Assembly (NCBI RefSeq): GCF_000243395.2
Contig: NZ_CM001484.1
Span: 3,032,524-3,096,523, forward strand
Direction of reading: 5' to 3'
Length of the DNA stretch: 64,000 bases
Source of the DNA: Saccharomonospora glauca K62
GTDB lineage: Bacteria > Actinomycetota > Actinomycetes > Mycobacteriales > Pseudonocardiaceae
The notes under the pieces were generated by a model. It was not told the origin of the DNA. It ran no database searches and saw only the letters and a list, made by a program, of their open reading frames with translations. Shown piece after piece: positions 15,829-62,126 of this stretch. Made by a program: the position numbers and the translations under genes. Within the stretch, counting starts at the first letter, position 1. Every line of letters starts with the position of its first letter.

Positions 15829-17376
15829 ATGACACCTGCTCGACCCGGCCGCCCGCACACCGTGTCGCACCTGAGCCGCCGCAGCTTTCTCATCCTCAGT
15901 ACCAGCGCGGCTGTCGCAGGCCTTGCCGCATGTACTTCCAACGCTGCGGCACCGAGTTCACCGGTTCGCGTCGCGCCGAACTCGCCACTAGTGGCGGCCG
16001 CCGAGCGCGATCGCCGGAAAGCTGGGGCTCGCACCACTTCCGTTCGCCTCGATGCCACCGTGGGCGAGGTGGATCTCGGCGGTGTCCAGGTCACAACGTG
16101 GACCTACGGCGGTGAGCTACCGGGGAAGGAAGTCCGGATCCAGCGCGGCGACGTCCTTCGGGCTCACCTGACCAACAACCTCCCCCAACCGACGACCATC
16201 CACTGGCACGGACTCGCCCTGCGCAACGACATGGACGGGGTCCCGGGTCTGACCCAGCCGGAGGTACCGGCAGGCGCCAACTTCACCTACGAGTTCACGG
16301 TTCCCGACGCTGGTACCCACTGGTTCCATTCCCACGTTGGTGTGCAGCTGGACCGTGGGTTGTACGCACCTATCATCGTGGAAGACCCGGCGGACGGTGC
16401 CGATTATGACACTGAGCTCGTCGTCGTCCTCGACGACTGGCTGGACGGCACCGGACGCACCCCGGACACCGTGCTGGCCGACCTCATAAAAAACGGGATG
16501 AACATGGGTGGCATGGATCACGGGGGGATGCCGGGCATGGACCACGGGGGGATGCCGCAGTCAACGCTGCTCGGTGGCGATGCCGGCGACGTCATTTACC
16601 CGCACATCCTCGCCAACGGGCGTATCGCCTCCGCACCACGCTCCGTCACCGCGAAGCCCGGGCAACGAATCCGGCTGCGGCTGGTCAACGCCGCCGCGGA
16701 CACCGCTTTCCGGGTCGGGGTCCCGGGCGTGCCGATGCGGGTTACGCATACGGACGGCTTCCCTGTGCAACCCCGTGAGGCGGATACGGTGCTCCTGGGC
16801 ATGGGTGAGCGGGTCGATGCCGTCATCACAGTTCCGGATGACACGGTCCCGGTGCTGGCGCTGGCGGAGGGGCGTGACTCCTACGCACAGGTGATCATCC
16901 GAAGTGGGCGGGAAAGCAATCCGGCGGCAAGCGACTCCGCCGCCAAGCAGCTCGAACAACTACCCGTACTTGCCATCAACGATCTCAAAGCCACGGAAGA
17001 GGTGACTCTGGCTGACCGGGCACCGGATGTCACGCACACATTGGTACTCGACGGACCGGGCGCCAAGTACGACTGGACTATCAACGGCAAGCCGTACAAC
17101 CCCGATGACGGATTGCCCATCCGGGACGGCCAGCGGGTGCGGGTTCGATTCGAGAACAAGTCGAGCATGTTCCACCCCATGCATATCCACGGCCACACCT
17201 TTCAGATCCTGGGGCGGAACGGCCGAGGGCCCCGCAAGGACACCGCGATCGTGCTTCCCGGAGAAGCGCTGGAGGTGGACTTCGACGCCAACAACCCGGG
17301 CCAGTGGCTGACCCACTGTCACAACGCGTACCACGGCGAATCTTCGATGATGACGGTGCTGTCCTACGTTCAGTAG
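15829..17376 (+). CDS. multicopper oxidase, Tat-exported lipoprotein type
   Basis: A 515-residue three-domain multicopper oxidase. The N-terminus has a twin-arginine S-R-R-S-F-L (residues 16-21) and a lipobox with Cys35 (L-A-A-C). Copper ligands are all present: H125-W-H127-G, H164-W-F-H167-S-H169, H-P-M-H-I-H-G-H and H-C-H near the C-terminus. A Met/His-rich insert (about 224-242, repeats of G-G-M-D-H) resembles the CueO methionine loop that binds Cu(I). Likely cuprous oxidase detoxifying copper outside the membrane. The ATG at 15829 follows GAGGGAG. Operator 4 suggests BlaI-type control. Confidence 0.92.
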   Translation: MTPARPGRPHTVSHLSRRSFLILSTSAAVAGLAACTSNAAAPSSPVRVAPNSPLVAAAERDRRKAGARTTSVRLDATVGEVDLGGVQVTTWTYGGELPGKEVRIQRGDVLRAHLTNNLPQPTTIHWHGLALRNDMDGVPGLTQPEVPAGANFTYEFTVPDAGTHWFHSHVGVQLDRGLYAPIIVEDPADGADYDTELVVVLDDWLDGTGRTPDTVLADLIKNGMNMGGMDHGGMPGMDHGGMPQSTLLGGDAGDVIYPHILANGRIASAPRSVTAKPGQRIRLRLVNAAADTAFRVGVPGVPMRVTHTDGFPVQPREADTVLLGMGERVDAVITVPDDTVPVLALAEGRDSYAQVIIRSGRESNPAASDSAAKQLEQLPVLAINDLKATEEVTLADRAPDVTHTLVLDGPGAKYDWTINGKPYNPDDGLPIRDGQRVRVRFENKSSMFHPMHIHGHTFQILGRNGRGPRKDTAIVLPGEALEVDFDANNPGQWLTHCHNAYHGESSMMTVLSYVQ

Positions 17377-22588: not shown

Positions 22589-24913
22589 TCAAGCTGCGAC
22601 CGGCTCCTTCACTGGCTTGTCCTCCGACTTCACCGACGGTGGGGTGTCCGTGATGCCGCTGCGGAAGCTCTTCAGGCGCAGGCTGTTGCTCACCACGAAC
22701 ACCGAGCTGAACGCCATCGCCGCACCCGCGATCATCGGGTTGAGCAGGCCCGCCGCCGCCAGCGGCAATGCCGCCACGTTGTAGGCGAACGCCCAGAACA
22801 GGTTGCCCTTGATCGTGGCCAGCGTGCGGCGCGACAGGCGGATCGCGTCCGCCGCCACCCGCAGGTCACCGCGCACCAGGGTGAGGTCACTCGCCTCGAT
22901 CGCGACGTCGGTGCCCGTACCCATCGCCAGGCCCAGGTCCGCCTGCGCCAGCGCCGCCGCGTCGTTCACGCCGTCGCCAACCATCGCCACGATCCGGCCT
23001 TGGGACTGCAGCCGCTTCACCACGTCGACCTTGTCCTTCGGCAACACCTCGGCGATCACCTCGTCGATGCCGACCTCGGCCGCGACCGTCTTGGCGACCG
23101 CCTCGTTGTCACCGGTCAACAACACCGGCGTCAGCCCGAGCCCACGCAGTTGCGTGATCGCCTCGGCAGAGGTCGGTTTCACGGTGTCGGCCACCACCAG
23201 CACCCCGCGTGCCTGGCCATCCCAACCGACGGCGACGGCGGTCTTGCCCTGCGCCTCCGCGGCGGCCTTGGCCTCGACCAGCTCAGGTGTGAGGTGCTGG
23301 CTCCAGTCGGCCAGCAACGCGGGGCGACCGACCAGAACCGCGTGCCCGTCGACGACGCCCTGCACACCCAAGCCCTCGAGGTTGGTGAAGTCCGTGGCGG
23401 CAGGCAACTGCCCGACCTGCTCGGCCGCGCCCTTGGCGATGGCCTGGGCGATCGGGTGCTCGGAGGCGTTCTCCAGCGCCCCCGCCAACCGCAACAGCTC
23501 GTCGGGGTCCACCCCGTCGGCCACGTGGACGTCGATCAGCGCCATCTTGCCGGTGGTGACGGTGCCGGTCTTGTCCAGCACCACCGTGTCCACGCGGCGG
23601 GTGGACTCCAGCACCTCCGGCCCCTTGATCAGGATGCCGAGCTGCGCACCCCGCCCGGTACCCACCAGCAACGCGGTCGGCGTGGCCAGCCCCAGCGCGC
23701 ACGGGCACGCGATGATCAACACCGCGACCGCGGCCGTGAACGCCGCCGACACCGAGCCACCGGTACCGAGCCAGAACGCGAGCGTTCCCACGGCCAGCGC
23801 GATCACGATCGGCACGAACACGCCCGAGATCCGGTCCGCCAGTCGCTGCACGGCCGCCTTGCCCGTCTGCGCGTCCTCCACCAGTTTGGCCATCTGCGCC
23901 AACTGGGTATCCGAACCCACCCGCGTGGCCCGCACCACCAACCGGCCACCCGAGTTGACCGTCGCGCCGACGACCTTGTCGCCCGGGCCGACCTCGACGG
24001 GCACCGACTCGCCGGTGAGCATGCTCTCGTCGACAGCGGAACTACCCTCGGACACCACGCCGTCGGTGGCGACCTTCTCACCCGGCCGGACCACGAAGTG
24101 GTCACCCACCGCCAGTTGCTCGACGGGAATCCGGACTTCCTTCCCGCCTCGCAGCACCACGACGTCCTTCGCGCCCAGTTCCAGCAGCGCCCGCAGGGCG
24201 GCACCGGCCCGTCGCTTGGACCGGGCCTCGAAGTAGCGCCCGGCGAGGATGAACGTGGTCACCCCGGCCGCGACCTCGAGATAGATGTTGCCGTCGCCGC
24301 TCATCCGCTCGATGGTCAGTTCGAACGGATGCGTCATCCCCGGCACACCCGCGCTGCCGAACAACAACGCATACACAGACCAGGCGAAAGCCGCCAGGGT
24401 GCCCATCGAGACCAGCGTGTCCATCGTCGCCGCGCCATGCTTGAGGTTCGTCCACGCGGCCCGATGGAACGGCCACGCCGCCCACGTCACCACCGGCGCG
24501 GCCAACGTCAGCGAAATCCACTGCCAATAGGTGAACTGCAACGCCGGAACCATCGCCAGCACGATCACCGGCACCGACAACACGGCAGCACCGATCAGGC
24601 GATCCCGCAGCGACCGCGTCGGATCATCGTCGCTGTCCGTCGCGGCCGCCGGTTCCCCCGACGCCTCCGGCTGCGGCAGAGCCGCCGAGTAACCGGCGGC
24701 CTCCACTTGAGCCACGAGCTGGTCCGGCTCCACGCCATCGGCGTAGACGACCTTGGCCTTTTCCGTGGCGTAGTTCACCGTGGCGGTGACCCCGTCGAGC
24801 TTGTTGAGCTTGCGTTCGACCCGGTTCGCGCACGCCGCGCACGTCATGCCACCAATCGCCAGCTCGATCTCCCGGCCAGGGGTCGGCTGTGGGTCTTTCA
24901 CCTCGGATGTCAT
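22589..24913 (-). CDS. copA: copper-exporting P1B-type ATPase CopA
   Basis: A 774-residue P1B-1 ATPase. The N-terminal metal domain has G-M-T-C25-A-A-C28. Then come the T-G-E-S actuator motif, the membrane C-P-C (A-C-P-C-A-L-G-L), phosphorylation motif D-K-T-G-T, the H-P nucleotide motif (S-E-H-P-I-A) and the G-D-G-V-N-D hinge. All are intact, so it should pump Cu(I) out of the cytoplasm. The ATG has GGAAGGAG 8 bases upstream. It is the last gene of csoR-copZ-25890-copA, controlled by the CsoR site at 26480. Confidence 0.95.
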
Positions 24914-25919: not shown

Positions 25920-26126
25920 TCAGGCGGTCAGGCTGTATCCGGCTTTTTCCACAGCGGCGCGCACCTCGTCCACGCCCAGGTCGCGCTCGCTGGTGACGGT
26001 GACCTTGCCGGTGGGCAGGTCGACCGCCACGTCGGTCACTCCGTTGATCTCGTTGACTTCCTCGGTCACCGAGAGCACGCAGTGCTGGCAGGTCATGCCG
26101 GTCACCGTGTACGTCTGCTGAGCCAT
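25920..26126 (-). CDS. copZ: CopZ-like copper chaperone
   Basis: A 68-residue single heavy-metal-associated domain with G-M-T-C13-Q-H-C16 and the usual beta-alpha-beta-beta-alpha-beta length. It should carry Cu(I) to CopA. The ATG at 26126 has a strong GGAGGAGA site; the longer frame upstream belongs to csoR's shadow. It lies between csoR and the exported His-rich protein. A second, diverged chaperone gene lies at 28250 under its own CsoR-like site. Confidence 0.92.
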   Translation of the reverse strand: MAQQTYTVTGMTCQHCVLSVTEEVNEINGVTDVAVDLPTGKVTVTSERDLGVDEVRAAVEKAGYSLTA

Positions 26127-26160
26127 CTCTTCTCCTCCTTCTTCGGTCAAACTGTGGTTG

Positions 26161-26442
26161 TCAGGAGCGCACGAGGCGGGCGATGGCGTCGCTGGCCTCG
26201 CGCACCTTCTCCTCCGCCGTGTCGCCGCCCTGGCTGATCGCCTCGGCCACGCAATGCCGCAGGTGCTCATCCATCAGCCCGAGGGACACGGCCTGCAACG
26301 CCTTCGTGGCCGCGGAGATCTGGGTGAGGATGTCGATGCAGTACTGATCGTCCTCGACCATCCTCTGCAACCCTCGAATCTGCCCCTCGATCCGGCGCAG
26401 CCGCTTGAGGTACGCGTCCTTGTCTCCGGTGTATCCCCGCAT
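26161..26442 (-). CDS. csoR: CsoR copper-sensing repressor
   Basis: A 93-residue all-helical CsoR/RcnR protein with the Cu(I) triad C35, H60 and C64 (Y-C-I-D-I-L and H-L-R-H-C) in the same positions as mycobacterial CsoR. It releases DNA when Cu(I) binds. It is the first gene of the copA operon and its own operator lies 38 bases upstream. Similar sites upstream of 26574 and 28250 suggest it also controls the divergent ferredoxin and second copZ genes. Confidence 0.94.
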   Translation of the reverse strand: MRGYTGDKDAYLKRLRRIEGQIRGLQRMVEDDQYCIDILTQISAATKALQAVSLGLMDEHLRHCVAEAISQGGDTAEEKVREASDAIARLVRS

Positions 26443-26479: not shown

Positions 26480-26494
26480 TACCCCTCGGGGGTA
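26480..26494. promoter_or_regulatory. CsoR operator A
   Basis: TACCCC-TCG-GGGGTA is a perfect 6-base-arm palindrome of the G/C-tract type bound by CsoR, centred 45 bases before csoR on the minus strand. Confidence 0.8.
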
Positions 26495-28193: not shown

Positions 28194-28212
28194 TATACCC
28201 AACGGGGGTACC
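28194..28212. promoter_or_regulatory. CsoR operator C
   Basis: TATACCC-AAC-GGGGGTACC (core TACCC-N5-GGGTA at 28196-28210) closely matches site A and ends 38 bases before the second copZ gene. Confidence 0.75.
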
Positions 28213-28929: not shown

Positions 28930-29660
28930 CAATATGCGGCTGCCGGAAGCCGTAGTCGTTTGAGGGCGAGTGCGTTGACGGCGGAGCATGCCCACTTCGA
29001 TGTCAAGTTCATGCAGTTCGGCGATCGTGGCCTCCGAGTTTCGCGGGGTGCGTCGGCGATGCCGATGACGCCGGCGGCTACCATCCACGGCGGCGAGCAC
29101 CGCGGTTCGTCCGCCGTCGGCGAGTTCGTCACGGCGTGCGGCTACCGGTCCTAGGTCGATGCCTTCACGTTCCATCAGCCGCCGGTTTCCGACCACGGCG
29201 CGTTTGTCCGCCACGGTAGCCATAGCACCATGACCGGGCACGTTCTCGAAGCGCTCGGCGGATGCGGAATCCGCGCCGCGTTCCTTGGCGTGCCAGACGA
29301 TCGCTTCGGCCAGCGGGTGCTCGGAGTTCCGTTCAACCGCCGAGACCAACGCAGCAACTTGCCGTCGATTCCGTTTGTGAGCACGTCGATGACTTTCGGG
29401 TTCGGCTTTGGTCAGTGTGCCCGTCTTGTCCATCACGACGACCTGGATCCGGGCCGAAGTCTCCAGGGCGATGGCGTTCTTGAACAGCACACCGTGCTTG
29501 GCACCAGTCCGGAGCCGACCATGATCGCCGTCGGAGTCGCCAATCCGAGGCGTCCGGGGCAGGTGATCGCCACGACTGTGGTGGCGAACAGGATCGCGGT
29601 GATGAACGGGTTGCCGGTGAGTAGCCAGACCGCCCACGGACTTCACCCCAGGTTGCCGTT
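28930..29660 (-). pseudogene. heavy-metal P-type ATPase remnant
   Basis: The minus strand holds the middle of a P1B ATPase: T-C-P-G-R-L-G-L-A-T-P-T in one frame, then K-H-G-V-L-F-K-N-A and M-D-K-T-G-T-L-T in another, then E-H-P-L-A-E-A and the nucleotide domain, which falls apart near 29000. The N-terminal half and the G-D-G-V-N-D hinge are missing. The ion motif reads C-P-G, not C-P-C. Clearly inactive. Confidence 0.7.
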
Positions 29661-41771: not shown

Positions 41772-42350
41772 ATGAAGAAATACCTCATCGGGGCGAGCGC
41801 GGCTGCCGTCCTCGCCCTCACAACGGCCTGCGGCACCGGCGATACGTCCGCCGTGGACTCGAGCCGGAGCACGCCACCGACAGCGGCCGGCGAGGCTCAG
41901 CAGAGCAGTCACAACGACAGCGACATCGCCTTCGCCCAACAGATGATCCCGCATCACGAGCAGGCAGTGGAGATGGCCGACCTGGCATTGGAGCGTTCCA
42001 CCGACCCGAATGTGGAAAGCCTCGCTGAGCAGATCACAGGCTCGCAGGATCCCGAGATCCAGCAGATGACCGGGTTGCTGAAGAAGTGGGGCGCGCCTGC
42101 AGCCCCCGATAAGTCCGACATGCCGGGGATGATGAGCGGAGAGGAGATGCGGCAGCTGGAACAGGCGACCGGCTCCGAGTTCGACGTCATGTGGCTGCAG
42201 ATGATGATCCAGCATCATCAGGGCGCGATCGAGCTGGCCAAGACAGAACTGAAGGAAGGCAGCGACGCCGACGCCAAGGCACTCGCCCAGCGCATCATCG
42301 AGGCGCAGGACGCTGAAATCCGCGAGATGGTGGGGCTCCTCCCGCACTGA
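41772..42350 (+). CDS. DUF305 lipoprotein
   Basis: A 192-residue lipoprotein (lipobox T-T-A-C, Cys20) with two DUF305 halves, each a four-helix, ferritin-like bundle piece: Q-Q-M-I-P-H-H-E-Q-A and Q-M-M-I-Q-H-H-Q-G-A. The two H-H pairs and Met residues suggest copper binding outside the membrane. It is paired with the DUF6153 gene upstream. One of three intact DUF305 genes here, with at least two decayed ones at 10990 and 19584. Confidence 0.9.
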   Translation: MKKYLIGASAAAVLALTTACGTGDTSAVDSSRSTPPTAAGEAQQSSHNDSDIAFAQQMIPHHEQAVEMADLALERSTDPNVESLAEQITGSQDPEIQQMTGLLKKWGAPAAPDKSDMPGMMSGEEMRQLEQATGSEFDVMWLQMMIQHHQGAIELAKTELKEGSDADAKALAQRIIEAQDAEIREMVGLLPH

Positions 42351-49256: not shown

Positions 49257-49862
49257 ATGAAGAAGTCCCTGACTTATGCAGCCCTCGCCACGGCGGTCGC
49301 CGCGGCGCTCGCCGCCGGATGCACCGGAGGCACCGAGGGCGCAGACACCACTGGTAACGCCGGCTCCCAGCCCAGCACAAGCGCGTCAGCTGAACAGGCC
49401 ACCCACAACCAGGCGGACGTGACCTTCGTCCAGGGGATGATCCCTCACCACGAGGGCGCCATCGAGATGGCCGACCTCGCGGAGGGCCGCACCGACAACC
49501 CCGACATCCTCGATCTCGCCCAGCGCATCAAACAAGCACAGGGACCTGAGATCGACCAGCTGAACGGCTGGCTCGACGCCTGGGGCGTCAACAACGACAT
49601 GCCCGGGATGGACCACGGCGACATGGGGCATGAGATGCCCGGAATGGGTGCCGAGGACATGAAGAAACTCGAACAGGCCAACGGCGCCGAGTTCGACCGG
49701 CTGTTCCTGGAGTTGATGATCGAGCACCACCAGGGCGCCGTTGACATGTCCGAAACAGTGCTGGACGAGGGCAGCAACCCCGAGGTGAAGGAACTCGCCC
49801 AGCAGATCATCGACGCTCAGGAAGCAGAGATCAACGAGATGCGATCACTGCTGGAAGGCTGA
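49257..49862 (+). CDS. DUF305 lipoprotein
   Basis: A 201-residue lipoprotein (A-A-G-C, Cys22) with both H-H motifs: G-M-I-P-H-H-E-G-A and L-M-I-E-H-H-Q-G-A. A Met/His-rich loop between the halves (M-P-G-M-D-H-G-D-M-G-H-E-M-P-G-M) points to copper binding. It follows DUF6153 by 84 bases and precedes another DUF305 gene by about 100. Confidence 0.9.
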   Translation: MKKSLTYAALATAVAAALAAGCTGGTEGADTTGNAGSQPSTSASAEQATHNQADVTFVQGMIPHHEGAIEMADLAEGRTDNPDILDLAQRIKQAQGPEIDQLNGWLDAWGVNNDMPGMDHGDMGHEMPGMGAEDMKKLEQANGAEFDRLFLELMIEHHQGAVDMSETVLDEGSNPEVKELAQQIIDAQEAEINEMRSLLEG

Positions 49863-49963: not shown

Positions 49964-50560
49964 TTGCCGCGCACACATCGTGTCCTGCCCTCGCTGGCTC
50001 TACTCCTCGTCCTCACCGCGGCATGCGGTGGCACAGGCGAGACCGACACCACCACCTCGACTGCCCCACCGAGCACAGCCCCCACCACGGCGATAGCCGA
50101 CAGCGATCACAATCGCAGCGACATCGAGTTCGCCCAGGACATGATCCCGCACCACGAACAGGCCGTCGTGGTCGCCGAACTCGCGCTGGAACGCGCGTCC
50201 AGCCCCGAGGTGAAAGACCTTGCGCAGCGCATCAAGGACGCTCAGAACCCCGAAAAGAACGCACTACTGGCACAACTGAAGTTGTGGGGCGAAACAGTCA
50301 CACCGGGCGGCGCGAGCGGCGAACACGACCACTCCCACCTCATGCCCGAGGAGACATTCCAGCAACTCCAGCAGAGCACGGGCCCGGCATTCGACACACT
50401 GTGGCTGCAAACCATGATCGAACATCACCAAGGCGCCGTCGACCTCGCGCAAGCGCAACTCCGCGACGGCAGCGACACGCTGACGTCGATGTACGCCCAA
50501 GACATCGTCGACCGGCAGAGCAAAGAGATCGAGGAGATGACGGCACTACTGGGCCAGTAG
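49964..50560 (+). CDS. DUF305 lipoprotein
   Basis: A 198-residue lipoprotein (T-A-A-C-G-G) with D-M-I-P-H-H-E-Q-A and T-M-I-E-H-H-Q-G-A. It starts with TTG at 49964, with AAGGA 7 bases upstream. The linker (G-E-H-D-H-S-H-L-M) is His-rich rather than Met-rich, so metal preference may differ from its neighbour. Third gene of the DUF6153-DUF305-DUF305 group. Confidence 0.88.
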   Translation: MPRTHRVLPSLALLLVLTAACGGTGETDTTTSTAPPSTAPTTAIADSDHNRSDIEFAQDMIPHHEQAVVVAELALERASSPEVKDLAQRIKDAQNPEKNALLAQLKLWGETVTPGGASGEHDHSHLMPEETFQQLQQSTGPAFDTLWLQTMIEHHQGAVDLAQAQLRDGSDTLTSMYAQDIVDRQSKEIEEMTALLGQ

Positions 50561-50649: not shown

Positions 50650-51415
50650 CGGCGTTACTGCCGCACTGCAATCTTCGGGTCTTCGATTCGCTGCCGTCCG
50701 ACACCGACGATGGCCTGGATGAGCAGGGAGGGGCGCGTACCCACGGAGTTGACGAAGATAGTGGTGACCGAGGCTGCCATGGCGACCATCGCCCAGACCG
50801 GGTACACCAGGCCGGTCGTGGCGAGCGGGACGCCGATGCCGTTGAACAGAAACGCCAGGGCAATGTTGCCGCGGGTGTGCCGATAGGCGCGGTCGCTGAT
50901 GTCGCGGGCATCCAGCACGGCACCGACCTGGTCGCGCGGCAGCACGATGTCGGCCGATTCGACGGCGATTCGGTGCCGCCAGCGCGATGCCCACGTCGGC
51001 CTGCATCAGCGCGAGGGCGTCATTGATGCCATCGCTCACCATGGCCACACAGGTGCCGTCGGCCTGCAATTCCCGCACGGTCTCGGCCTTACCTTCCGAG
51101 CGCACCAGCTCCCGGACCTCAGTGCTCCCGAACTGATCGGCGACCCGCCAGCCAGCACGCTCGCTGCCACCGATATCGCGGCGGCGGCCAAAGCCAACAC
51201 CTCGTCCTCATGACCGGCGACGGGGCACACGGCGCGGACGGTCGGCTTGCCCTCGGTCAGGTTGCCGGCCTTGTCCCACACGATCCGCCGCACCAGCCGG
51301 GAGGTCTGGAACGCCTCGCCGGTGCGCATGACAATCCCACGGTCGGCGGCCACCCCGTGCCGCGCACGATGGCCAGCGGCGCGGCGATGTCGACCGCGCA
51401 GGGATAGACCATGTC
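50650..51415 (-). pseudogene. heavy-metal P-type ATPase remnant, DKTGT lost
   Basis: Minus-strand fragments in several frames: V-W-D-K-A-G-N-L-T-E-G-K-P-T-V (phosphorylation motif D-K-T-G-T changed to D-K-A-G-N), then S-D-G-I-N-D-A-L-A-L, then a C-terminal pair of helices ending with G-T-R-P-S-L-L. Frameshifts separate them. Without the catalytic motif it cannot pump. Confidence 0.7.
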
Positions 51416-51690: not shown

Positions 51691-51881
51691 GCATCGCCTG
51701 TGTCATAGCGACGGAAACCCTGTCCCTCCTCCCACATACCCGGGACAATTCGCGCAGAAGAACCGTTCGAGTGCCGCCCGCACCGGGGTGCCACGATGCG
51801 TAACACACGGATCGTGAATACTTCCGCCACTGACGGGGAATACCCGTGCCTGGTATTGCATGTCGGCCGAGGGAGTAGCGC

Positions 51882-52229
51882 ATGACCGTCACCGGTGCGC
51901 TCGTCTTGCTGGCTGTGGCGTTGGTGGGTGTCGCCGGTCTCTACGGCATCGCTTTCGCCGCCCGTTTGGGCGGCACCAGAGCCAACGTCTACCCGTTCCT
52001 CTCCGGACACTCACCCGCCGAGCACGCCGTGTCGCGGTACCACGTCCGTTGGTACACCGTCTCGATGATCTATCTCGTCTTCGATATGGAGATGGTGTTT
52101 ATGTACCCGTGGACGCTGGTCGTCGCGGAGAAGGGCACGTCGGCGGTCGTGGAGATGTTCGTGTTCCTCGCGATCCTCTTCTCGGGTGTCGTATACGCGT
52201 GGCGTGAGGGGGCACTGCGATGGGCCTGA
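51882..52229 (+). CDS. nuoA: NuoA-like complex I membrane subunit
   Basis: A 115-residue protein with three helices and the NuoA signature Y-P-F-x-S-G, then R-W-Y-T-V-S-M-I-Y-L-V-F-D-M-E-M-V-F (Asp/Glu of TM2, quinone-channel side). It starts an eight-gene cluster with no nuoB, C, D, E, F, G or I of ordinary form. The next gene begins inside its last codons (overlap about 10 bases). Confidence 0.93.
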   Translation: MTVTGALVLLAVALVGVAGLYGIAFAARLGGTRANVYPFLSGHSPAEHAVSRYHVRWYTVSMIYLVFDMEMVFMYPWTLVVAEKGTSAVVEMFVFLAILFSGVVYAWREGALRWA

Positions 52230-53455
52230 CCGAGTGGTTGTTGCGCCACACTCCGCCCCATCCGTTGGTGACGGCCACACCGGGTGGCACCGCCGCCCGG
52301 CTCGCCGCCGAACGGGTGCTGCGCGAGCGCGGCTGGCGCGAGGCGGCGAGTCCCGCCGAGGCGAATCTCCTGGTCGTCGCGGGCCCACTCGACGACGACC
52401 TGCGGCCGTATGTGGAAGCGGTGTGGGCGCAGATCCCTCGGCCGCGCGCGCGGACGCAGATCGACTCCGCGACTGCCGCACCGTCTGCAGTGGACGCGGC
52501 GGTCGCCACCCTCCGGGACGCCGACCTCCAGCGCCACCAGGACGACGACGCACCACCCGAGGGCCATGACATCGGCCATGAGCAGCAGGGACACCAGAGG
52601 CACGAGAGCCACGACGCCAGCGCACACGGTAGCCACCACGGCAACGAGGGCGGCAACGACTCCGGGCACCAGCACGATGACGACAGCCAGAACAAAGGCG
52701 AAGACCACGTCGGCGGGCACCAGCACCACGACATGGGTCACGATATGGGTGGCATGGACATGCCCGGCAACGTCGCGATGGCCGACCGGGGCGAGGACCG
52801 GGACGGGCTCACCCTCGACCGGGTACATCTGCCGCTCGGCCCGGTGCTGCCGGACTGGCCCGCCGGGCTCATCGTGCACAGCACCCTGCAGGGTGACATC
52901 ATCCAGGACGCGACCGTCGAGACCGTGGGCTGTGGGGGTGCCCCGTACCCTCACCCGTTCTGGACCGGCGACGCCCACCGGGTGGCCGCTTGGCGCCTCG
53001 ACTCGTGCGCCCGCCTCCTATCGGTCGCGGGCTGGGCCGACGCCGCGGCCACCGCCCGCCGGTTTCGCGACGAGGTGCTGCCCGGCGGCCGGTCGACGCG
53101 GCCGGAGAACATAGCCCCGTTGCTCTCGGCATGGGCGCGGCGCGTCCGCCGCTCGCGTGTCCTGCGCTGGTCCCTGACGGGGGTCGGCGTCACGCCTGAC
53201 GTGCCCTCGACCCCACCGGGATTGCGCGGCGACACGCTCACCCGGCTGTATCGGTGGCTCGGCGACGCTGAGCGAGCACTCACCGGCACCGTTACGCCGT
53301 CCGATGAGGACGACCGTGCGCGTGAGGCCAGATGGACGCTCGACGCGCTGCCTGACCTCCTCACGGGGACAGAGTTCGCCCTGGCCCGGCTGCTGGTGGC
53401 CAGTCTCGACCCCGACCTCGACACCGTGACCACCCCCAAGGTCGCTCATGGTTGA
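52220..53455 (+). CDS. NuoB/D-like His-Met-rich protein of complex I-like cluster
   Basis: A 411-residue protein in place of nuoB-D. Residues 1-85 resemble NuoB without its cysteines (N-L-L-V-V-A-G-P-L-D-D, then Y-V-E-A-V-W-A-Q-I-P-R-P). Residues 105-180 are a linker with about 20 His and several Met (H-D-M-G-H-D-M-G-G-M-D-M). From 183 on comes a domain with G-L-T-L-D-R-V-H-L-P-L-G-P-V-L-P-x-W-P. Only two cysteines, so no N2-type 4Fe-4S cluster can form. The resemblance to NuoB is my reading, not a proven homology. It overlaps nuoA and nuoH. Confidence 0.72.
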   Translation: MGLTEWLLRHTPPHPLVTATPGGTAARLAAERVLRERGWREAASPAEANLLVVAGPLDDDLRPYVEAVWAQIPRPRARTQIDSATAAPSAVDAAVATLRDADLQRHQDDDAPPEGHDIGHEQQGHQRHESHDASAHGSHHGNEGGNDSGHQHDDDSQNKGEDHVGGHQHHDMGHDMGGMDMPGNVAMADRGEDRDGLTLDRVHLPLGPVLPDWPAGLIVHSTLQGDIIQDATVETVGCGGAPYPHPFWTGDAHRVAAWRLDSCARLLSVAGWADAAATARRFRDEVLPGGRSTRPENIAPLLSAWARRVRRSRVLRWSLTGVGVTPDVPSTPPGLRGDTLTRLYRWLGDAERALTGTVTPSDEDDRAREARWTLDALPDLLTGTEFALARLLVASLDPDLDTVTTPKVAHG

Positions 53456-54392
53456 GGCGATCGGGTGGCCCGGCGCGTTCCTCCTGCCCGTAGTGCTGGG
53501 TGTGCTGGCGCTGGCGGCCGCCGCATTCGACGCGCACCTTGCCGCCCGCGCGGCCGGGACCTCGGACACGACCGGGTTCAGCACGGCCGTCACCTCGCCA
53601 CTGCGGGAGACAGCGGGCCTGCTCGTGCAGCAACGACGACGCACCCTGGCAGCTGACACACTGCTGTGGCGGGGCGCGGGCGTCACGCTGTTCGCGGCGG
53701 CCCTGCTCGCGTCTCTCGTCACGCCCCTGGGGCATTGGGCTGTCGGGGACAGCGCCGTCGGCATCGTGTGGTTCAACGCGATGGAAGTCGTCGCCTGGGC
53801 GGCGGTGTGGCTGGCGGGCTGGGGCGGCAACTCCGCGTACGGGCTCGTCGGCGGGTACCGGTTCCTGGCGCAGGGACTGGCCTACGAACTGCCGCACATG
53901 TTCGTGCTCACCACCGCAGCGATCGGCGCCGGTTCGCTCCGGGTGAGCGACATCGTGACGGCACAGCAGAACCTGTGGTTCGCCGTCTGGATGCCGGTCG
54001 CGTTCGCCGTGTTCCTCATCTCAGTGCTCATGATGGCGTTCTTCCCGCCGTTCGATGCGCCACTCGGCCGTGACATCGCCGGAGGGGCGGCCGCCGAGAT
54101 GTCCGGCGCGGACCGGCTGGTGTTCGGCGCCGGTCGCTGGCTGCTGCTCGTGTCCGGCGCGGCGATGTCCGTGCCGCTGTTCCTCGGGGGCGGCCTCGGC
54201 CCGGTACTCCCCGGCTGGCTGTGGTCACTCGTGAAGACCGTGGCGGTACTCGCGGTCCTGGTGTGGGTGAGCCGTCGGCTGCCCACCATCCGCATGGAGC
54301 GGTTCGAGGAACTGTCGTGGATCGTCCTGATACCGCTCACTCTGCTGCAGGCTCTGGTCGTGGCCGTGGTCGTCCTGGCCCGCACATCGTGA
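53448..54392 (+). CDS. nuoH: NuoH-like complex I membrane subunit
   Basis: A 314-residue protein with eight or nine helices and NuoH features: Y-G-L-V-G-G-Y-R-x(4)-G-L-A-Y-E-L-P and F-F-P-P-F-D-A-P. The usual acidic region after P-F-D-x-P (E-x-E-x-E-L-V-x-G-Y) is changed to L-G-R-D-I-A-G-G, so residues that line the quinone chamber are altered. That agrees with the loss of NuoB and NuoD cofactors. It overlaps the upstream gene by 8 bases. Confidence 0.88.
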   Translation: MVEAIGWPGAFLLPVVLGVLALAAAAFDAHLAARAAGTSDTTGFSTAVTSPLRETAGLLVQQRRRTLAADTLLWRGAGVTLFAAALLASLVTPLGHWAVGDSAVGIVWFNAMEVVAWAAVWLAGWGGNSAYGLVGGYRFLAQGLAYELPHMFVLTTAAIGAGSLRVSDIVTAQQNLWFAVWMPVAFAVFLISVLMMAFFPPFDAPLGRDIAGGAAAEMSGADRLVFGAGRWLLLVSGAAMSVPLFLGGGLGPVLPGWLWSLVKTVAVLAVLVWVSRRLPTIRMERFEELSWIVLIPLTLLQALVVAVVVLARTS

Positions 54393-54409
54393 CATGAGGA
54401 GGTGGACCG

Positions 54410-54973
54410 ATGTGGACACAGATCGCGTTCTGGCTGTGCGCGGCCGGTGCCGTCATCACCGGAATCCTGGTGTTCCGGGTGGATTCCATGGCCAGGGCCA
54501 CGTTCTCGCTGCTCGCGTCGTTCGTGTTCGCGGGGCTGGCGTTGCTGCTGATCCACCTGACCTATCTGGGTGTGCTCGTCATCCTCATGATGATCATGGA
54601 AATGCTCATCATGGTGGTCTTCATGGTGATGTACATGATGAACCCGGCCGGATTGATGCCCATGAGCATGGTGCACAACCCGAAGGGCTCACTGGGGATC
54701 GCCGTCGGGACGTTCGCCTTGCTCGTAGCGGGCATCTACCTCATCGACTGGCCCACGTCGCAGGCCTCACCACCGCCCGACACCACGAGGCAGCTGGGTG
54801 AGGCGCTCATGGGCTCAAAGATGCTCGTGATGATGGTGCTCGGGCTGGCCTTGTTCGCCGCGATAGTTGTCACCGTCGTGCTCTCGACCCACCGGGGCCG
54901 CTACGACCGCTTCGGCGACCGACTGGACCGCACGCGACCGCGTGACCCCGTGCGCGGAGGTGTCGGCCGATGA
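54410..54973 (+). CDS. nuoJ: NuoJ-like complex I membrane subunit
   Basis: A 187-residue protein with five helices. Its third helix is strikingly Met-rich (L-M-M-I-M-E-M-L-I-M-V-V-F-M-V-M-Y-M-M), more than in ordinary NuoJ, which could reflect a membrane adaptation or metal interaction. It overlaps nuoK by 4 bases (ATGA). Confidence 0.88.
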   Translation: MWTQIAFWLCAAGAVITGILVFRVDSMARATFSLLASFVFAGLALLLIHLTYLGVLVILMMIMEMLIMVVFMVMYMMNPAGLMPMSMVHNPKGSLGIAVGTFALLVAGIYLIDWPTSQASPPPDTTRQLGEALMGSKMLVMMVLGLALFAAIVVTVVLSTHRGRYDRFGDRLDRTRPRDPVRGGVGR

Positions 54974-55275
54974 CGCTGCAGGACTACCTGCTGCTGGCAG
55001 CGGCGCTGTTCAGCGTCGGGGTGTACGGCGCGCTGTCCCAGCAGTCCATCGTCATGGTGATGATGGGCCTGGAACTGATGATCAACGGCGTGCTCGTCGG
55101 CGGTGCCGGGTTCTGGTACTTCACCTCGCCGGTCCGCCCGGACGGCCAGGTGCTCGTGGCGGTCGCGGTGACCGCGATGGCCATCGAGATGGCAGCCGGG
55201 TTCGCCGTGGCCACGGCGCTGCTGCGGGCCCGTGACGTGGACATGACCGACATGGCCGCCGACCTGAAGGACTGA
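54970..55275 (+). CDS. nuoK: NuoK-like complex I membrane subunit
   Basis: A 101-residue three-helix protein with both essential glutamates: M-G-L-E-L-M-I-N (TM2) and M-A-I-E-M-A-A-G-F-A (TM3). The proton path through K is therefore intact. Homologous to MrpC. Confidence 0.93.
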   Translation: MTLQDYLLLAAALFSVGVYGALSQQSIVMVMMGLELMINGVLVGGAGFWYFTSPVRPDGQVLVAVAVTAMAIEMAAGFAVATALLRARDVDMTDMAADLKD

Positions 55276-55280
55276 CGGGC

Positions 55281-57128
55281 ATGCTGTGGTCACTCTTCGG
55301 GCTGCCCCTCGTCGTCGGCGTCGCGCTGCTGTTGGCCGGCCATCGGGCCGACCATCATGCTGCGGTGGTGTCGATCACGACGTCCGTGGTGACGCTGGGA
55401 ATGTCGATCGCGGCCGCGATCATCCGCCCGGCGATGTCGGTTCCCTACCTGCGCGGCATCACGTTCGGGCTGCGGGTGGACGGGCTCTCGGCGGTCCTCG
55501 TGGTGACCGTCGCGGTGGTGACGCTCGCCGTGCTCGTGTTCGCGGCGGGCGAGTTCGGCGCGGGCGAGGCGCAGGCGCGCTACCACGGGCTGATGCTCGT
55601 GTTCGCGAGCGCGATGCTGCTGACCGTCACGGCCACCACGCTCGTCACGCTGCTCATGGCGTGGGAGGTCATGAGCGCGATGTCGTACGCGCTCATCGGG
55701 TTCCACTGGCGCCAGCGCCGGCGCGCCGCATCGGGCACCGTGGCGTTCCTCGTCACCCGGGCGGCCGATCTCGGCCTCTACGTGGCGGCGGGCGCCGCGC
55801 TCGCGGGTGGGGCGAGCGGTCTCACGCTAGACGCGCTCGCAGGACTGCCGGACGGCTGGCGGGACGTCGTGGCCGGGGGCGTGATCCTTGCCGCGGCGGG
55901 GAAGTCGGCACAACTGCCGTTCAGTTTCTGGCTGGCCCGCGCAATGGACGGTCCAAGCTCTACCTCGGCGCTGCTGCATTCGGCCACGATGGTGGCGGCC
56001 GGGTCGTACCTGCTGCTGCGGCTGGAGCCGCTGCTCGCGGCCACCCCCTGGGCGCCCCCGCTCGTCGCGTGGCTGGGCGCGATCACGGCGCTGGCCCTGG
56101 GTGCCGTCGCGGTGGTGCAGACCGACCTCAAGCAGTTGCTCGCCGCGTCGACGTGCTCGCAGGTGGGTTTCATGGTGCTGGCAGCCGGAGCGGGTGGCGT
56201 GGCGGCCGGCAGCGCGCAACTCGTGGCACATGCGCTCACCAAGAGCTTGCTGTTCCTGACGGCCGGGGCGTGGCTGATGGCACTCGGCACCAAGCACCTG
56301 CCGGATCTGACGGGCGTGGCACGGCGCTACCCGGTGGTAGGAACCACGTTCACCGTGGGCGCGGTGACGCTCGCCGGGCTGCCCCCATTGTCGTTGTGGG
56401 CGACGAAGGACCAGGTGCTCACGGCCACAGTGCCGTCCGCACCGGCGCTGTATCTCGTCGGTCTCGCCGCTGCCGCGCTGAGTGCCGCCTACGCGATGCG
56501 GGCGGTGACGTTGGTGTGGTCGCCGCCCACGGCGGAACCGCGGTTCGACACCGAGCACCCAGGCACGCGCCGCGTCAGCCGGGCGCAGAGCGTGGTGCTG
56601 CCGCCGCTGGCGTCCGGGGCCGCGCTGCTCGGCGTGCTCGCGGTGCCCGGCGTGTGGTCGGCGTTCGCCAGGCTGGTGTCCCACGGCCGGGAAGCCACCC
56701 CGGAATGGTGGGAGGCCGCCGTCTCCGCCGCCGTGGCGCTGGCCGCCGCCGCTGCCGCCGTCGCCGTGGTCCGCCTCCGTGGTGACGTGCCGGAGCAGGG
56801 CGGGCTGCTGCGCTGGCTGGGTCTGGAAGCATTCGCGCGCGAACGGATCGCCCGTCCCGCCGTGACAACGGGGCAGGTACTCGCCCGGTTCGACGACCAG
56901 GTGGTGGCCGGTGCCGTGCGCGGGACGGCCACGCTCGGGTTGCGGCTGGCTCGCATGACGACGCTGCGCTGGGAACCGGTGGTGGGTGGCGCCGTGCGCG
57001 GAGTCGCCGGTGGTGTTCGGCGGCTCGGCCACCTCGCGCGCCGTCCGCAGACAGGGCAGCTCCACCAGTACTACGCCGAGATCGCCGTCCTGCTCACGGC
57101 GCTGGTCGTGTTGCTGATCGTGTTGTGA
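55281..57128 (+). CDS. nuoL: NuoL-like antiporter subunit
   Basis: A 615-residue protein with about 16 helices. The TM5 acid is present (A-W-E-V-M-S-A-M-S-Y), as are the TM7 and TM8 Lys/His (K-S-A-Q-L-P-F, L-L-H-S-A-T-M-V). The long C-terminal amphipathic helix is followed by a final membrane helix. The pump channel looks working. GTGA overlap with nuoM. Confidence 0.93.
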   Translation: MLWSLFGLPLVVGVALLLAGHRADHHAAVVSITTSVVTLGMSIAAAIIRPAMSVPYLRGITFGLRVDGLSAVLVVTVAVVTLAVLVFAAGEFGAGEAQARYHGLMLVFASAMLLTVTATTLVTLLMAWEVMSAMSYALIGFHWRQRRRAASGTVAFLVTRAADLGLYVAAGAALAGGASGLTLDALAGLPDGWRDVVAGGVILAAAGKSAQLPFSFWLARAMDGPSSTSALLHSATMVAAGSYLLLRLEPLLAATPWAPPLVAWLGAITALALGAVAVVQTDLKQLLAASTCSQVGFMVLAAGAGGVAAGSAQLVAHALTKSLLFLTAGAWLMALGTKHLPDLTGVARRYPVVGTTFTVGAVTLAGLPPLSLWATKDQVLTATVPSAPALYLVGLAAAALSAAYAMRAVTLVWSPPTAEPRFDTEHPGTRRVSRAQSVVLPPLASGAALLGVLAVPGVWSAFARLVSHGREATPEWWEAAVSAAVALAAAAAAVAVVRLRGDVPEQGGLLRWLGLEAFARERIARPAVTTGQVLARFDDQVVAGAVRGTATLGLRLARMTTLRWEPVVGGAVRGVAGGVRRLGHLARRPQTGQLHQYYAEIAVLLTALVVLLIVL

Positions 57129-58645
57129 CCAGGGTCGAAGGTGAGGTGAACGTGCTCAGCGTCGTGGTGTTCCTGCCGCTCGCGGTCGCGGTCGGGCTCG
57201 TGGCCATGCCACGGGTGAGTGACAGGGTGGTGCGCTCGATCTGGATCGCGGCCACCGCGGCAGATCTCGCGTTGGTGGTGGCGCTGTGGATCGGGTTCGC
57301 GCCGGGGCCGTCCGGATTCGCCTACGAGGTGAACCAGCGCTGGATTCCGACCGTGAGCGCGGGATACCACATCGGCCTCGACGGGCTGAGTCTGCCGCTG
57401 GTGGCGCTCACGGCGGTACTGTTTCTCGCCTGCGCGCTGTACTCGCTGCGCCAAACCCACCGGATGCGGGCATTCGCGGCGCTGTTCTTGTTCTTGCAGA
57501 CGGTGTGCCTAGGGGTGTTCGTCTCCCTGGATCTCATCCTGTTCTTCGTCTTCTTCGACCTGTCCATCGTGGGCATGTACTTCGTGATCGCGCTCTGGGG
57601 ACACCGCGGCGCGGCGCGCGCAGCACTGATGTTCTTCCTCTACACGTTCCTCGGCTCGCTGGCGCTGCTGCTCGGCTTCATCGGCCTGTACGTGGCCTCC
57701 GACCCCCACACCTTCGACATCGTGGCCCTGACCGCGCAAAACCCGCTCGCGGGCGGAGGAATCTTCAGCGTGCTGGTGCTGCTGGCGATCCTGGTGGGCC
57801 TGGCCGTGAAGACACCGACGGTGCCGTTCCACACCTGGCTGCCTCCCGCGCACACCGAGGCACCCGCTGCGGGCTCGGCCATCCTCGCCGGGGTGCTGCT
57901 GAAGCTCGGCACCTACGGGTTCGTGCGGATCGCAATGCCGATCCTGCCGGGCACCTGGCGTGACTACTCACCGGCCATCGTCGCCATCGGTGTAGCTGGC
58001 GTGCTGTACGGGGCATTCGTCGCGTTGGGGCAGAACGACCTCAAACGGATGGTCGCCTACACGTCGGTGAACCACATGGGCTACATCCTGCTGGCTTTTG
58101 GGGCGGCCGGGCTGGTCGCGACGTCGGACGCGCAGGCCCACGACCTCGCGGTGACCGGTGCCGTCACACAGATGGTGAGCCACGGGCTCATCACCGGAGC
58201 GCTGTTCCTGCTCACCGGGGTGCTTTACGAACGCGGCCGCACCTACGACATGGACGCCTACGGGGGCCTCGCGGCGCGCACGCCCTGGTTCGCCCGGGTC
58301 ACCGCCGTCGCCGCGTTCGCATCACTCGGACTGCCCGGATTCTCCGGGTTCATCGCGGAGTTCCAGATCTTCACGGGCGCGCTAGGCCCCGTCCCGGTCG
58401 CCACGGCACTGGCCGTCGTCGGCATCCTTGTCACCGCGGCCCTGTTCCTGCGCGCCCTGCAGCGGGTCTTCCTCGGACCGGCGCGTGCAACCGGTAAAGG
58501 TGACATGGCCGACCTCGCGGGCGCCGAGGCGGCCGCCATCGTGCCGCTGCTGGCACTGGCCGTCCTCATCGGAGTATTTCCCCGGTTCCTGCTGGACGTG
58601 ATCGAGCCCGCCGCCCGGGTCGTCGGAACGCTGGTGAGCCGCTGA
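57125..58645 (+). CDS. nuoM: NuoM-like antiporter subunit
   Basis: A 506-residue protein with 14 helices. The usual TM5 Glu is Asp here (F-F-D-L-S-I-V-G-M-Y-F), while the TM7 Lys (K-T-P-T-V-P-F-H-T-W-L-P-x-A-H) and TM12 Lys are kept. The start is GTG at 57125 (GTGA overlap) or GTG at about 57152 after GAGGTGAAC. Proton pumping remains plausible. Confidence 0.92.
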   Translation: MTRVEGEVNVLSVVVFLPLAVAVGLVAMPRVSDRVVRSIWIAATAADLALVVALWIGFAPGPSGFAYEVNQRWIPTVSAGYHIGLDGLSLPLVALTAVLFLACALYSLRQTHRMRAFAALFLFLQTVCLGVFVSLDLILFFVFFDLSIVGMYFVIALWGHRGAARAALMFFLYTFLGSLALLLGFIGLYVASDPHTFDIVALTAQNPLAGGGIFSVLVLLAILVGLAVKTPTVPFHTWLPPAHTEAPAAGSAILAGVLLKLGTYGFVRIAMPILPGTWRDYSPAIVAIGVAGVLYGAFVALGQNDLKRMVAYTSVNHMGYILLAFGAAGLVATSDAQAHDLAVTGAVTQMVSHGLITGALFLLTGVLYERGRTYDMDAYGGLAARTPWFARVTAVAAFASLGLPGFSGFIAEFQIFTGALGPVPVATALAVVGILVTAALFLRALQRVFLGPARATGKGDMADLAGAEAAAIVPLLALAVLIGVFPRFLLDVIEPAARVVGTLVSR

Positions 58646-58646
58646 C

Positions 58647-60065
58647 ATGCCCCGCACGATGCTCGCCGACCTGAGTCTGATCCTGCCGGAGTTGTTCCTC
58701 ACCGGCGGTGCCGTGTGCGGGCTGCTGCTGGGCTCGTATCTGCCCCGGCGCTCCCAGTGGCTCGTGGACGCGTTGGCGGGTGTGGTGTGCGTCGCCGGTG
58801 TCGTCGCCACCGTGGTGGGCTGGCCGAACGGCGGCACGACGGTGTTCGAGGGCGCCTACGCGCTCGATGTGGCCACGGCTGTGGTGCGCATCGTGGTGCT
58901 GGTATCGGTGCTGCTGGTACTGGCGATCTCGGGCGAGTTCCGTGGCCACGCACGGAAAAGCGAGTTCGTGGTGTTGCTGCTGCTGTCCGCGCTCGGCACC
59001 ATCGTGCTCGCCGGCGCGAACGACCTGCTGCTGCTCGTCGCCGCCTTCCTGCTGGCGAGCGTGCCCCTCTACGCGCTCACCGGGTTCGCGAAGGACTCCC
59101 CCGGCACCGAGGCGACCATGAAGTACTACCTCCTGAGCGCACTCGCCGGAACGGTGATGCTGTTCGGGGTGATGGCCGTGTTCGGCGTCGGCGGCTCCAC
59201 CGGCTACGCCCGACTGGCTGAGACCCTGCCCACGACACCCGCCGCAGCCGTCGCCGCCGGTGCCGTCCTGGTGCTGGCCGGGCCGATGTTCAAGGCGGGC
59301 GCGGTACCCGTGCACTTCTGGGTACCCGACGTCACGCAGGGCGCCCGTCCCCCGGTGTCGGCGCTCGTCACCACGATTCCCAAGATCGGTGCACTGGTGG
59401 CGGTGTACCGCCTCGTCGCGGCCGTGCTCGCGCCGACGGCGCTGAACTGGCCGCTGCTCGTGGCCGTGGTCGCGGCCGCCACGATGACGCTAGGCAACCT
59501 CGCCGCCTTCTTCCAGGACAACGTCCGCAGACTGCTCGCATACTCGACGATCAGTCAGGTGGGCTACCTGCTCATGGCGGTCGCCGCAGCTGGCGCGTCC
59601 ACCCTCGCGTTGCCGAGCCTGCTGCTCTACCTCGCCGCCTACGCCGTGACGAACCTGGGCGCGTTCGCGGTCGTGGCGGCACTGCCCAACGCCGAGACCC
59701 TGACCGACTATCGCGGGCTCGTGCGGCACCACCCCTGGTTGGCGATCAGCCTCGTGGTGTGCCTGCTCGGGCTCGTCGGCACCCCACCCACCGGCGTGTT
59801 CGCCGGCAAGCTCACCGTGTTCACCGCCGCGTTCGACGCGGGGTTCGGCTGGCTCGTGGCCGTCGCCATCGCCAACACCGTCGCGAGCCTGTTCTACTAC
59901 CTGCGCTGGATCGCGCCCGCCGTGCGCCTCGAACCCCTCACGCTGCCGACCAACCACGGAGCCGCCGGCGCCGCCGCGGTCGCGGCCGCCGTGTCACTGG
60001 CGCTCGGGCCGCTCGCGGGGCTCGTCCTCGCCCCGCTCGGCCACCCGCTCACTCCGCTGCCGTGA
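58647..60065 (+). CDS. nuoN: NuoN-like antiporter subunit
   Basis: A 472-residue protein with 14 helices and the NuoN pattern: a Lys/acid pair in the middle helices (K-Y-Y-L-L-S-A, F-K-A-G-A-V-P-V-H-F-W-V-P-D-V) and Y-S-T-I-S-Q-V-G-Y. It is the last gene of the cluster. The downstream bases hold a recombinase relic, so the cluster ends here. Confidence 0.93.
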   Translation: MPRTMLADLSLILPELFLTGGAVCGLLLGSYLPRRSQWLVDALAGVVCVAGVVATVVGWPNGGTTVFEGAYALDVATAVVRIVVLVSVLLVLAISGEFRGHARKSEFVVLLLLSALGTIVLAGANDLLLLVAAFLLASVPLYALTGFAKDSPGTEATMKYYLLSALAGTVMLFGVMAVFGVGGSTGYARLAETLPTTPAAAVAAGAVLVLAGPMFKAGAVPVHFWVPDVTQGARPPVSALVTTIPKIGALVAVYRLVAAVLAPTALNWPLLVAVVAAATMTLGNLAAFFQDNVRRLLAYSTISQVGYLLMAVAAAGASTLALPSLLLYLAAYAVTNLGAFAVVAALPNAETLTDYRGLVRHHPWLAISLVVCLLGLVGTPPTGVFAGKLTVFTAAFDAGFGWLVAVAIANTVASLFYYLRWIAPAVRLEPLTLPTNHGAAGAAAVAAAVSLALGPLAGLVLAPLGHPLTPLP

Positions 60066-62003: not shown

Positions 62004-62060
62004 CCTCGCCTTGCCTTGGCCGGTCGTTTCCTCATCCTCGCCTTGCCTTGGCCGGTCGTT
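62001..62060. repeat. 28-bp direct repeat at the DsbA start
   Basis: CATCCTCGCCTTGCCTTGGC... occurs at 62001-62028 and again at 62033-62060, with a 4-base spacer. The repeat carries the putative ribosome site (GAGGATG on the minus strand), so each copy supplies a possible start for DsbA. This may alter expression if copies are gained or lost. Confidence 0.75.
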
Positions 62061-62126
62061 GGCCGCTCGAGCCCGAACCCTATACGTGCTCGCCCGAACA
62101 TATTGACGCGCGTTAGTTTGAGCCTC

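Follow-up and report, generated by a model that had tools for sequence, protein, structure and literature searches.

Respiratory complex I (NDH-1) couples chemistry at one end of the enzyme to distant proton movement in its membrane arm, by a route that is still debated. Related subunits also serve redox-free systems: Mrp Na+/H+ antiporters use NuoL/M/K-like subunits, and in DAB the NuoL-like DabB is coupled to a non-redox soluble partner, DabA. The energy-converting hydrogenase relatives, Ehr, MBS and formate hydrogenlyase (FHL), keep Fe–S clusters. Here we describe an operon of Saccharomonospora glauca K62, nuoA-X-H-J-K-L-M-N, at positions 51882–60065 of a 64 kb stretch (the window) of the 4.56 Mb genome, in which seven membrane-arm subunits are accompanied by a 411-residue protein, X. 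Its function is very probably linked to copper. Judged from sequence, there is about an even chance that the operon encodes a redox-free complex I derivative handling copper, as a proton-driven Cu(I) machine that would probably be an exporter.

The operon resembles complex I in its seven membrane subunits and their gene order, in the kept channel residues of NuoK and NuoL and in a near-kept NuoM. It differs in having no C, E, F, G or I, in representing B and D only by what reads best as a cofactor-less fusion, and in its mostly lost quinone entrance, new methionines and metal linker. The original prediction, made from the DNA letters alone, likened its logic to Mrp antiporters and to DAB carbon uptake. 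Redox-free use of NuoL/M/K-like subunits agrees with the Mrp comparison, while the make-up does not: the operon has NuoA and NuoH and no Mrp-only subunit in the cluster, and we know of no NuoA, NuoH or NuoB/D-like part in Mrp. The DAB comparison gained no support; the operon has seven Nuo subunits, and no DabA-like partner is found in X or among the 10 flanking open reading frames (ORFs) scanned. With the energy-converting hydrogenase relatives the operon shares B/D homologues on a membrane arm, MBS and FHL being among the structural matches of X, but it has no Fe–S small subunit or hydrogenase-type membrane subunits. We rejected a hydrogenase origin on the NuoH and NuoM trees, in which a single branch sets the operon proteins and eight distant ones apart from the rest (support 100/99 for NuoH and 98/92 for NuoM, the latter tree carrying a long-branch warning). 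The nearest branch in both trees is complex I; hydrogenase subunits stand apart, with HyfC/HycD on a far branch.

The operon is already in print. A partial NDH-1 (nuo) operon, patchy and thought to move between species, has been reported in Salinispora, Streptomyces and Kocuria and read as serving adaptation to marine or osmotic conditions (Penn and Jensen 2012, PMC3314556; Ian 2014, PMC4018334; Sun 2018, PMC6002675; Almeida 2019, PMC6676996). The last of these gives the exact order, nuoA, hypothetical gene, nuoH J K L M N, which is the order found here, and records the operon in a strain that came from copper-rich mine fluid; by gene order, the published operon is very likely this one, Salinispora lying outside the loci analysed below. 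The relevant passages of these papers take the product for an ion pump used in seawater or under osmotic stress; they give no identity for the hypothetical gene and draw no connection to copper. Across the literature searched (mostly open access, without bioRxiv preprints) we saw neither a copper link to the operon nor an identification of X. The copper link, and the reading of X as a NuoB–NuoD relic, are what we add.

Gene set, conservation and selection

The prediction of a membrane-arm gene set without electron-transfer subunits is borne out by Pfam searches (Table 1). The eight genes lie on one strand, neighbours mostly overlapping or abutting; NuoA, H, J, K, L, M and N score above Pfam cut-offs, and genes for NuoB, C, D, E, F, G and I are all missing from the cluster. 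The NADH and Fe–S subunits C, E, F, G and I are absent from both the cluster and the 10 flanking ORFs scanned and, as predicted, no flavin or Fe–S protein is encoded in the cluster. Against the curated NCBIfam models shown, A, H, J, K, L and N fall below cut-offs, marking the operon as a divergent set; the NuoM-like protein exceeds one subfamily cut-off (TIGR01972).

A named-genome scan returned at least 422 relatives, from which 80 loci were kept for analysis. The same gene order recurs in them, with all eight genes in that order on one strand in 77 of the 80; one exception stops at a contig end (L131) and two hold runs of N inside the operon (L064 and L132). Distribution is patchy: X occurs in 14 of 61 genomes (its own included), 8 of these among 12 genomes of the same genus. 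All eight frames are open in two close relatives. Ratios of non-synonymous to synonymous substitution (dN/dS) for the seven Nuo subunits, against close relatives in the genus, span 0–0.44 and mostly 0.05–0.32, with few substitutions in several; X gives 0.55–0.59 in same-genus comparisons and 0.27 with Amycolatopsis marina. The operon might instead be a decaying complex I remnant, and a few decayed copies do exist (L029, L054 and L059 as BLAST pieces; L233 by annotation only). Conserved gene order, low dN/dS and the invariant new residues described below make this barely credible, and we rejected a dead remnant on gene order and dN/dS. For the family, the worry that close relatives might carry a dead remnant is answered by the open frames in two of them and the low Nuo dN/dS.

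A separate complete nuo operon, whose presence had been posed as a question, lies at about C1:317.7–333.7 kb. It holds the single genome-wide match to NuoD (PF00346); NuoB (PF01058) has two matches, the canonical copy and one at C1:840996–841349 within a 611-aa frame, and two further pairs of PF00361 genes are perhaps Mrp. The operon could conceivably supply a spare membrane arm joining the canonical NuoB–G and NuoI of the same cell, and canonical NuoD is present in 38 of 42 operon genomes. It was not found in the other four (L089, L098, L121 and L134, which may be incomplete, some being draft assemblies), and because of these we rejected a spare arm. The mostly lost quinone entrance of NuoH, and the fold of X, which resembles parts needing replacement, further argue against it, leaving it highly improbable. 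With a single canonical NuoD here and none found in those four genomes, the idea that B, C, D or I genes of the cluster lie elsewhere likewise gains no support.

Protein X, the ion path and gained methionines

In the scan of the operon X has no Pfam match. An AlphaFold2 model built with 59 sequences (pLDDT 84, pTM 0.81) comprises two confident halves and a low-confidence join at about residues 116–178. The 50 listed of 354 Foldseek matches in the PDB are all complex I, chloroplast-type NDH, MBS or FHL chains, mostly of NuoD type and some of NuoB type (E 1e-3 to 2e-2, probability ~1, TM-scores 0.2–0.5); the predicted fold is recognisable but remote. Searching PDB sequences with an X profile gives NuoB-type chains as 41 of 43 matches (best 4e-6, about positions 38–83), and hhalign of X with NuoB gives 1e-6. 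Complex1_49kDa scores above its curated Pfam cut-off in X of Halomonas, Rubrobacter, Sulfitobacter and Nitratireductor; X of Roseivivax and Acuticoccus has no match above that cut-off. No cysteine of X is invariant (best column 25 of 78), and the N2-cluster cysteines of NuoB are lacking, though the N-domain matches NuoB. X is best read as a NuoB–NuoD fusion without cluster ligands and, being made of their relics, would occupy their place. Where the original prediction put a 411-residue protein in the position of NuoB, C, D, E, F, G and I, it is the position of NuoB and NuoD that X takes, and the protein itself appears to be built from relics of those two.

The linker between the halves carries at least eight His plus Met residues in 64 of 77 relatives, in line with the His/Met-rich partner that had been predicted. 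Heavy-metal-binding domains (HMBD) lie between the halves of X in Rubrobacter tropicus (8e-23) and in the alphaproteobacteria Sulfitobacter (3e-14) and Nitratireductor (5e-31), all three on plasmids. X is not annotated in the plasmid operons of Rhodopseudomonas (L178) and Methylobacterium (L179), in which NuoJ has a long His/Met-rich loop; the NuoJ tail is His-rich in Roseivivax and Acuticoccus, and Halomonas has a short His-rich tail. A likely metal-binding stretch is present in each of the eight distant plasmid loci, but its host protein changes, an HMBD in the X linker of some and a NuoJ loop or tail in others.

Ion-path residues are numbered as in E. coli complex I, and their roles, like those of the NuoH quinone entrance, are general knowledge of that enzyme. 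NuoK keeps E36 in 78/78 sequences and E72 in 69, the other 9 having Asp there. NuoL keeps E144, K229, H338 and K399 in 78/78, with H334 replaced by Gln in 66 of 78. The Asp-for-Glu change noticed earlier in NuoM is E144, and it is universal (77/77); K234 is kept in 76, K265 and E407 in 77. Proton-channel residues had been called present in NuoK, NuoL and NuoN. This stands for K and L; in NuoN the glutamate of transmembrane helix 5 (TM5) is lost (E133 to Leu, 77/77), with K217 kept in 76 and K247 and K395 also kept. NuoH E157 is kept in 77 and in 0/8 distant relatives, and little remains of the quinone entrance (E36 kept in 3/77, R37 in 1/77, R46 and E216 in 0/77). With a path largely kept in sequence, ion movement does seem feasible, and a redox-free ion-coupled machine is the probable nature of the complex. 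The kept channel residues of NuoL and NuoM would also suit the published reading of the partial operon, a proton or Na+ pump or antiporter for salt or pH adaptation; however, no redox source for pumping is encoded.

New methionines distinguish NuoJ, NuoK and NuoA from their canonical counterparts. NuoJ M27, M60, M61, M65, M68, M72, M76, M77, M85, M87, M134, M138 and M141, together with E64, occur in 78/78 system sequences and in 0/21 canonical ones (20 from operon-carrying genomes, plus E. coli). Among the eight distant relatives M27, M60, M68, M72, M76, M85, M87 and M138 are found in 8/8, the remaining new residues in 0–6 of 8. M61, E64, M65, M68, M72 and M76 share one helix face within a 120-degree arc; the AlphaFold2 model of NuoJ alone was poor (pLDDT 65.6) and served for helix limits only (52–77). 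NuoK M29, M70 and M74 and NuoA M74 follow the same pattern (78/78 against 0/21). Methionine content is raised relative to canonical subunits in NuoJ (9.5 versus 2.5%), NuoK (8.1 versus 4.8%) and NuoA (4.9 versus 2.8%) and lowered in H, L, M and N, which argues against a general bias. The new methionines of J, K and A sit near the conserved NuoK acids.

CusA and CTR1 use methionines along a membrane path for Cu(I); we know of no sequence relation of the operon to either, and the motor proposed here would derive from complex I. The same data would also fit a copper-gated proton machine, in which Cu(I) sensed by X and the methionine track would open or power a path for protons (serving pH, signalling or a partner such as an oxidase) with no copper carried, and nothing shows copper as cargo. 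We consider this rather unlikely, as methionines along one face of a whole transmembrane helix would exceed the needs of a sensor site.

CsoR-type operators and copper neighbourhood

To score sites before nuoA, an operator matrix was built from the promoters of csoR genes. Sites close to nuoA and their sequences were kept out of its training, and discarding near-duplicates reduced the loci from 110 to 97. The matrix reaches at least 12 bits before nuoA in 23/97 loci against 0/578 control segments, and at least 10 bits in 26/97 against 5/578; before 20 canonical nuoA genes it stays at or below 6.1 bits. Looser training, with two sites that also lie before nuoA in near-duplicate loci, gives at least 10 bits in 27/94 loci against 2/524 controls and 11.4 bits for the window. 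In an untrained count, TACCC-N0-6-GGGTA precedes nuoA in 15/94 loci (mostly N5), where 0.08 is expected from shuffles. The S. lividans CsoR operator follows 5'-TAC-X9-GTA-3' around G-tracts (PMC3902906), a rule that the window site TACCCGTGCCTGGTA fits. The 15-mer of L093 and L131 is found in the copZA1 and copZA2 operators, to which S. lividans CsoR binds (PMC3902906). CsoR would be the candidate regulator of nuoA at loci with such an operator, and where csoR and nuoA are adjacent (L101 and L139) the two may share one operator. A CopY-type operator, TACANNTGTA, was sought before nuoA and not found (0/94 loci).

Flanks were counted mostly over about 9.6 kb upstream and 3.3 kb downstream, and genome-wide CsoR and DUF305 counts cover 42 of the 80 loci. 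CsoR lies in the operon flanks of 12/42 genomes, where the number of CsoR genes in each genome would predict 0.22, and DUF305 in 14/42 against 0.29 expected; a simulation check on these counts gave at most 5 in 200,000. Over all 80 loci the five copper markers are CsoR (20), CopZ (20), CopA (24), multicopper oxidase (11) and DUF305 (22), with at least one present in 43. The multicopper oxidase neighbours would suit copper import, or delivery to that oxidase, in place of export, but CsoR-type control, like the CopA neighbours, points to use when copper is in excess, and we regard import or delivery as quite improbable. The published salt or pH reading, for its part, leaves the CsoR-type operators, copper neighbours, HMBD and new methionines unexplained, and one operon strain came from copper-rich mine fluid (PMC6676996); we hold that reading to be unlikely.

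Plasmid matches form overlapping sets (X, 14 records; NuoJ, 30; NuoM, 60 listed of 200), of which 20 records were examined by annotation, the proteobacterial ones chosen non-randomly. Fourteen of the 20 have copper-handling or cusA-type genes, three have DUF305 or BlaI/M56 only (L029, L179 and L233) and three have none (L056, L057 and L059). The operon has cop, cueR, copA, copper oxidase or cusA-type genes nearby on plasmids of Halomonas, Roseivivax, Acuticoccus, Rubrobacter, Sulfitobacter, Nitratireductor and Rhodopseudomonas. Among the eight distant plasmid loci, genes for copper efflux, copper oxidation or copper sensing, or of cusA type, occur in seven (L172–L178), the Methylobacterium plasmid (L179) having only a DUF305 gene near the operon. 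Plasmids of Mycobacterium avium (L027) and M. paragordonae (L055) from human sputum carry the operon near heavy-metal P-type ATPases, with csoR also in L055.

Copper genes of the window are collected in Table 1. A second copZ-like ORF starts at 28250, and BlaI/CopY with M56 is also present. Of the relics that had been noticed at both ends of the operon, the upstream one is upheld by the copA pieces; together with the second set, these may be left over from repeated turnover of a copper island. Another M56 metallopeptidase-like ORF lies at 42829–43860 (+), beside which the probes used matched no BlaI partner. Downstream of the operon are VKOR and DsbA-like thioredoxin genes (60676–62273, −). 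In Curtobacterium (L028), too, the next gene after the operon is of the DsbA family, and such a gene lies near it in Roseivivax (L173) and Acuticoccus (L174).

Table 1 Features of the operon and its copper neighbourhood (window coordinates)
Feature	Position	Strand	Evidence
NuoA-like; M71/M74 and E70 in second helix	51882..52229	+	Pfam PF00507 7e-26; M74 78/78 system, 0/21 canonical
X, 411 aa; putative NuoB-like (~aa 1–106) and NuoD-like (~aa 187–405) redox-dead fusion	52220..53455	+	AlphaFold2, Foldseek, profile, hhalign
His/Met-rich linker of X (~aa 107–186)	52538..52777	+	Sequence; low pLDDT ~116–178
NuoH-like; quinone-entrance residues mostly lost	53448..54392	+	Pfam PF00146 4e-44
NuoJ-like; Met-rich	54410..54973	+	Pfam PF00499 1.6e-11
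NuoJ TM3 Met/Glu stretch (M60 M61 E64 M65 M68 M72 M76 M77)	54587..54640	+	Each 78/78 system, 0/21 canonical
NuoK-like; both channel acids kept; extra M29, M70, M74	54970..55275	+	Pfam PF00420 4.5e-13
NuoL-like; channel residues kept	55281..57128	+	Pfam PF00361 2.8e-48
NuoM-like; TM5 Glu to Asp	57125..58645	+	Pfam PF00361 1.2e-65; TIGR01972
NuoN-like; TM5 Glu lost, Lys kept	58647..60065	+	Pfam PF00361 1.1e-55
CsoR-type operator candidate TACCCGTGCCTGGTA, 41 bp before nuoA; weaker G-tract	51841..51855	+	12.1–12.5 bits with strictly separated training
CsoR-type operator TACCCCTCGGGGGTA before csoR	26480..26494	−	Motif match
CsoR-type operator TACCCAACGGGGGTA before second copZ-like ORF	28196..28210	+	Motif match
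csoR, copper-sensing repressor	26164..26436	−	tblastn 63–71% to 3/4 annotated metal-sensitive regulators, 37% to the fourth
copZ, HMA-type chaperone	25923..26153	−	tblastn
copA-type heavy-metal P-type ATPase	22658..24886	−	tblastn
Multicopper oxidase	15871..17370	+	tblastn
DUF305 protein	49257..49862	+	Pfam PF03713 1.2e-53
DUF305 protein	49964..50560	+	Pfam PF03713 6e-40
DUF305 protein	41772..42350	+	tblastn
copA pieces directly upstream of operon, read as relic	50733..51171	−	tblastn pieces
Second set of copA pieces	28984..29627	−	tblastn

A proposed proton-driven Cu(I) machine

We propose that a rise in Cu(I) would release CsoR from its operator, upon which the complex would be made. X would dock on the cytoplasmic face of A/H/J/K, at the site that B and D take up in complex I, and collect Cu(I), perhaps from CopZ; the methionine track would then lead the ion through J/K/A to the outer face. 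Protons entering via L and M (perhaps also N) would act through the axial relay to the NuoK acids, producing a shape change of the kind for which complex I relies on quinone chemistry. On the outside the copper would be handed to the multicopper oxidase and DUF305 proteins, the overall result being Cu(I) export driven by protons. That the complex itself exports Cu(I) falls a little short of an even chance in our estimate. We are similarly tentative about a new class of metal transporter, in which complex I has shed its chemistry, a copper-loading domain replaces the quinone-reducing subunits and the proton gradient expels Cu(I) along a methionine ladder.

Several observations weigh against this proposal. 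Neighbours and regulation show a copper response at most, not copper as cargo. None of the five markers is found in the flanks of 37/80 loci, many Streptomyces among them, which also favours the salt or pH reading; in the 131 flanking ORFs scanned at these loci (of 174 in all, the scan leaving out the most distant of the three upstream ORFs in 34 loci, the five ORFs of L102 and four more) no Pfam family recurs among the 25 of 136 listed. Six of 36 marker-free loci (L063, L080, L082, L102, L112 and L117) do reach at least 10 bits before nuoA. The plasmid operons L056 and L057, with all eight genes, and the remnant L059 have no copper gene nearby. A clear operator (at least 12 bits) is absent from 74/97 loci, and other controls of the operon must exist because most loci have no CsoR-type site. 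The match of X to NuoD by hhalign is not significant (E 0.07), its NuoD identity resting on the modelled fold (Foldseek) and on intermediates. The X linker has fewer than five His plus Met in 9/77 relatives, X evolves fast inside the genus, and the TM5 glutamate of NuoN is gone.

If the proposal holds, ligand binding can take the place of electrons in running a complex I arm. A natural relative that keeps the arm, without redox or quinone chemistry, separates the two for direct test. The operon is at present annotated as NADH-quinone oxidoreductase and described in papers as a salt-adaptation pump; if the proposal is true, it would be a copper-tolerance system, borne on chromosomes and plasmids, that has gone unrecognised in proteobacteria and in actinobacteria of soil, marine and clinical origin.

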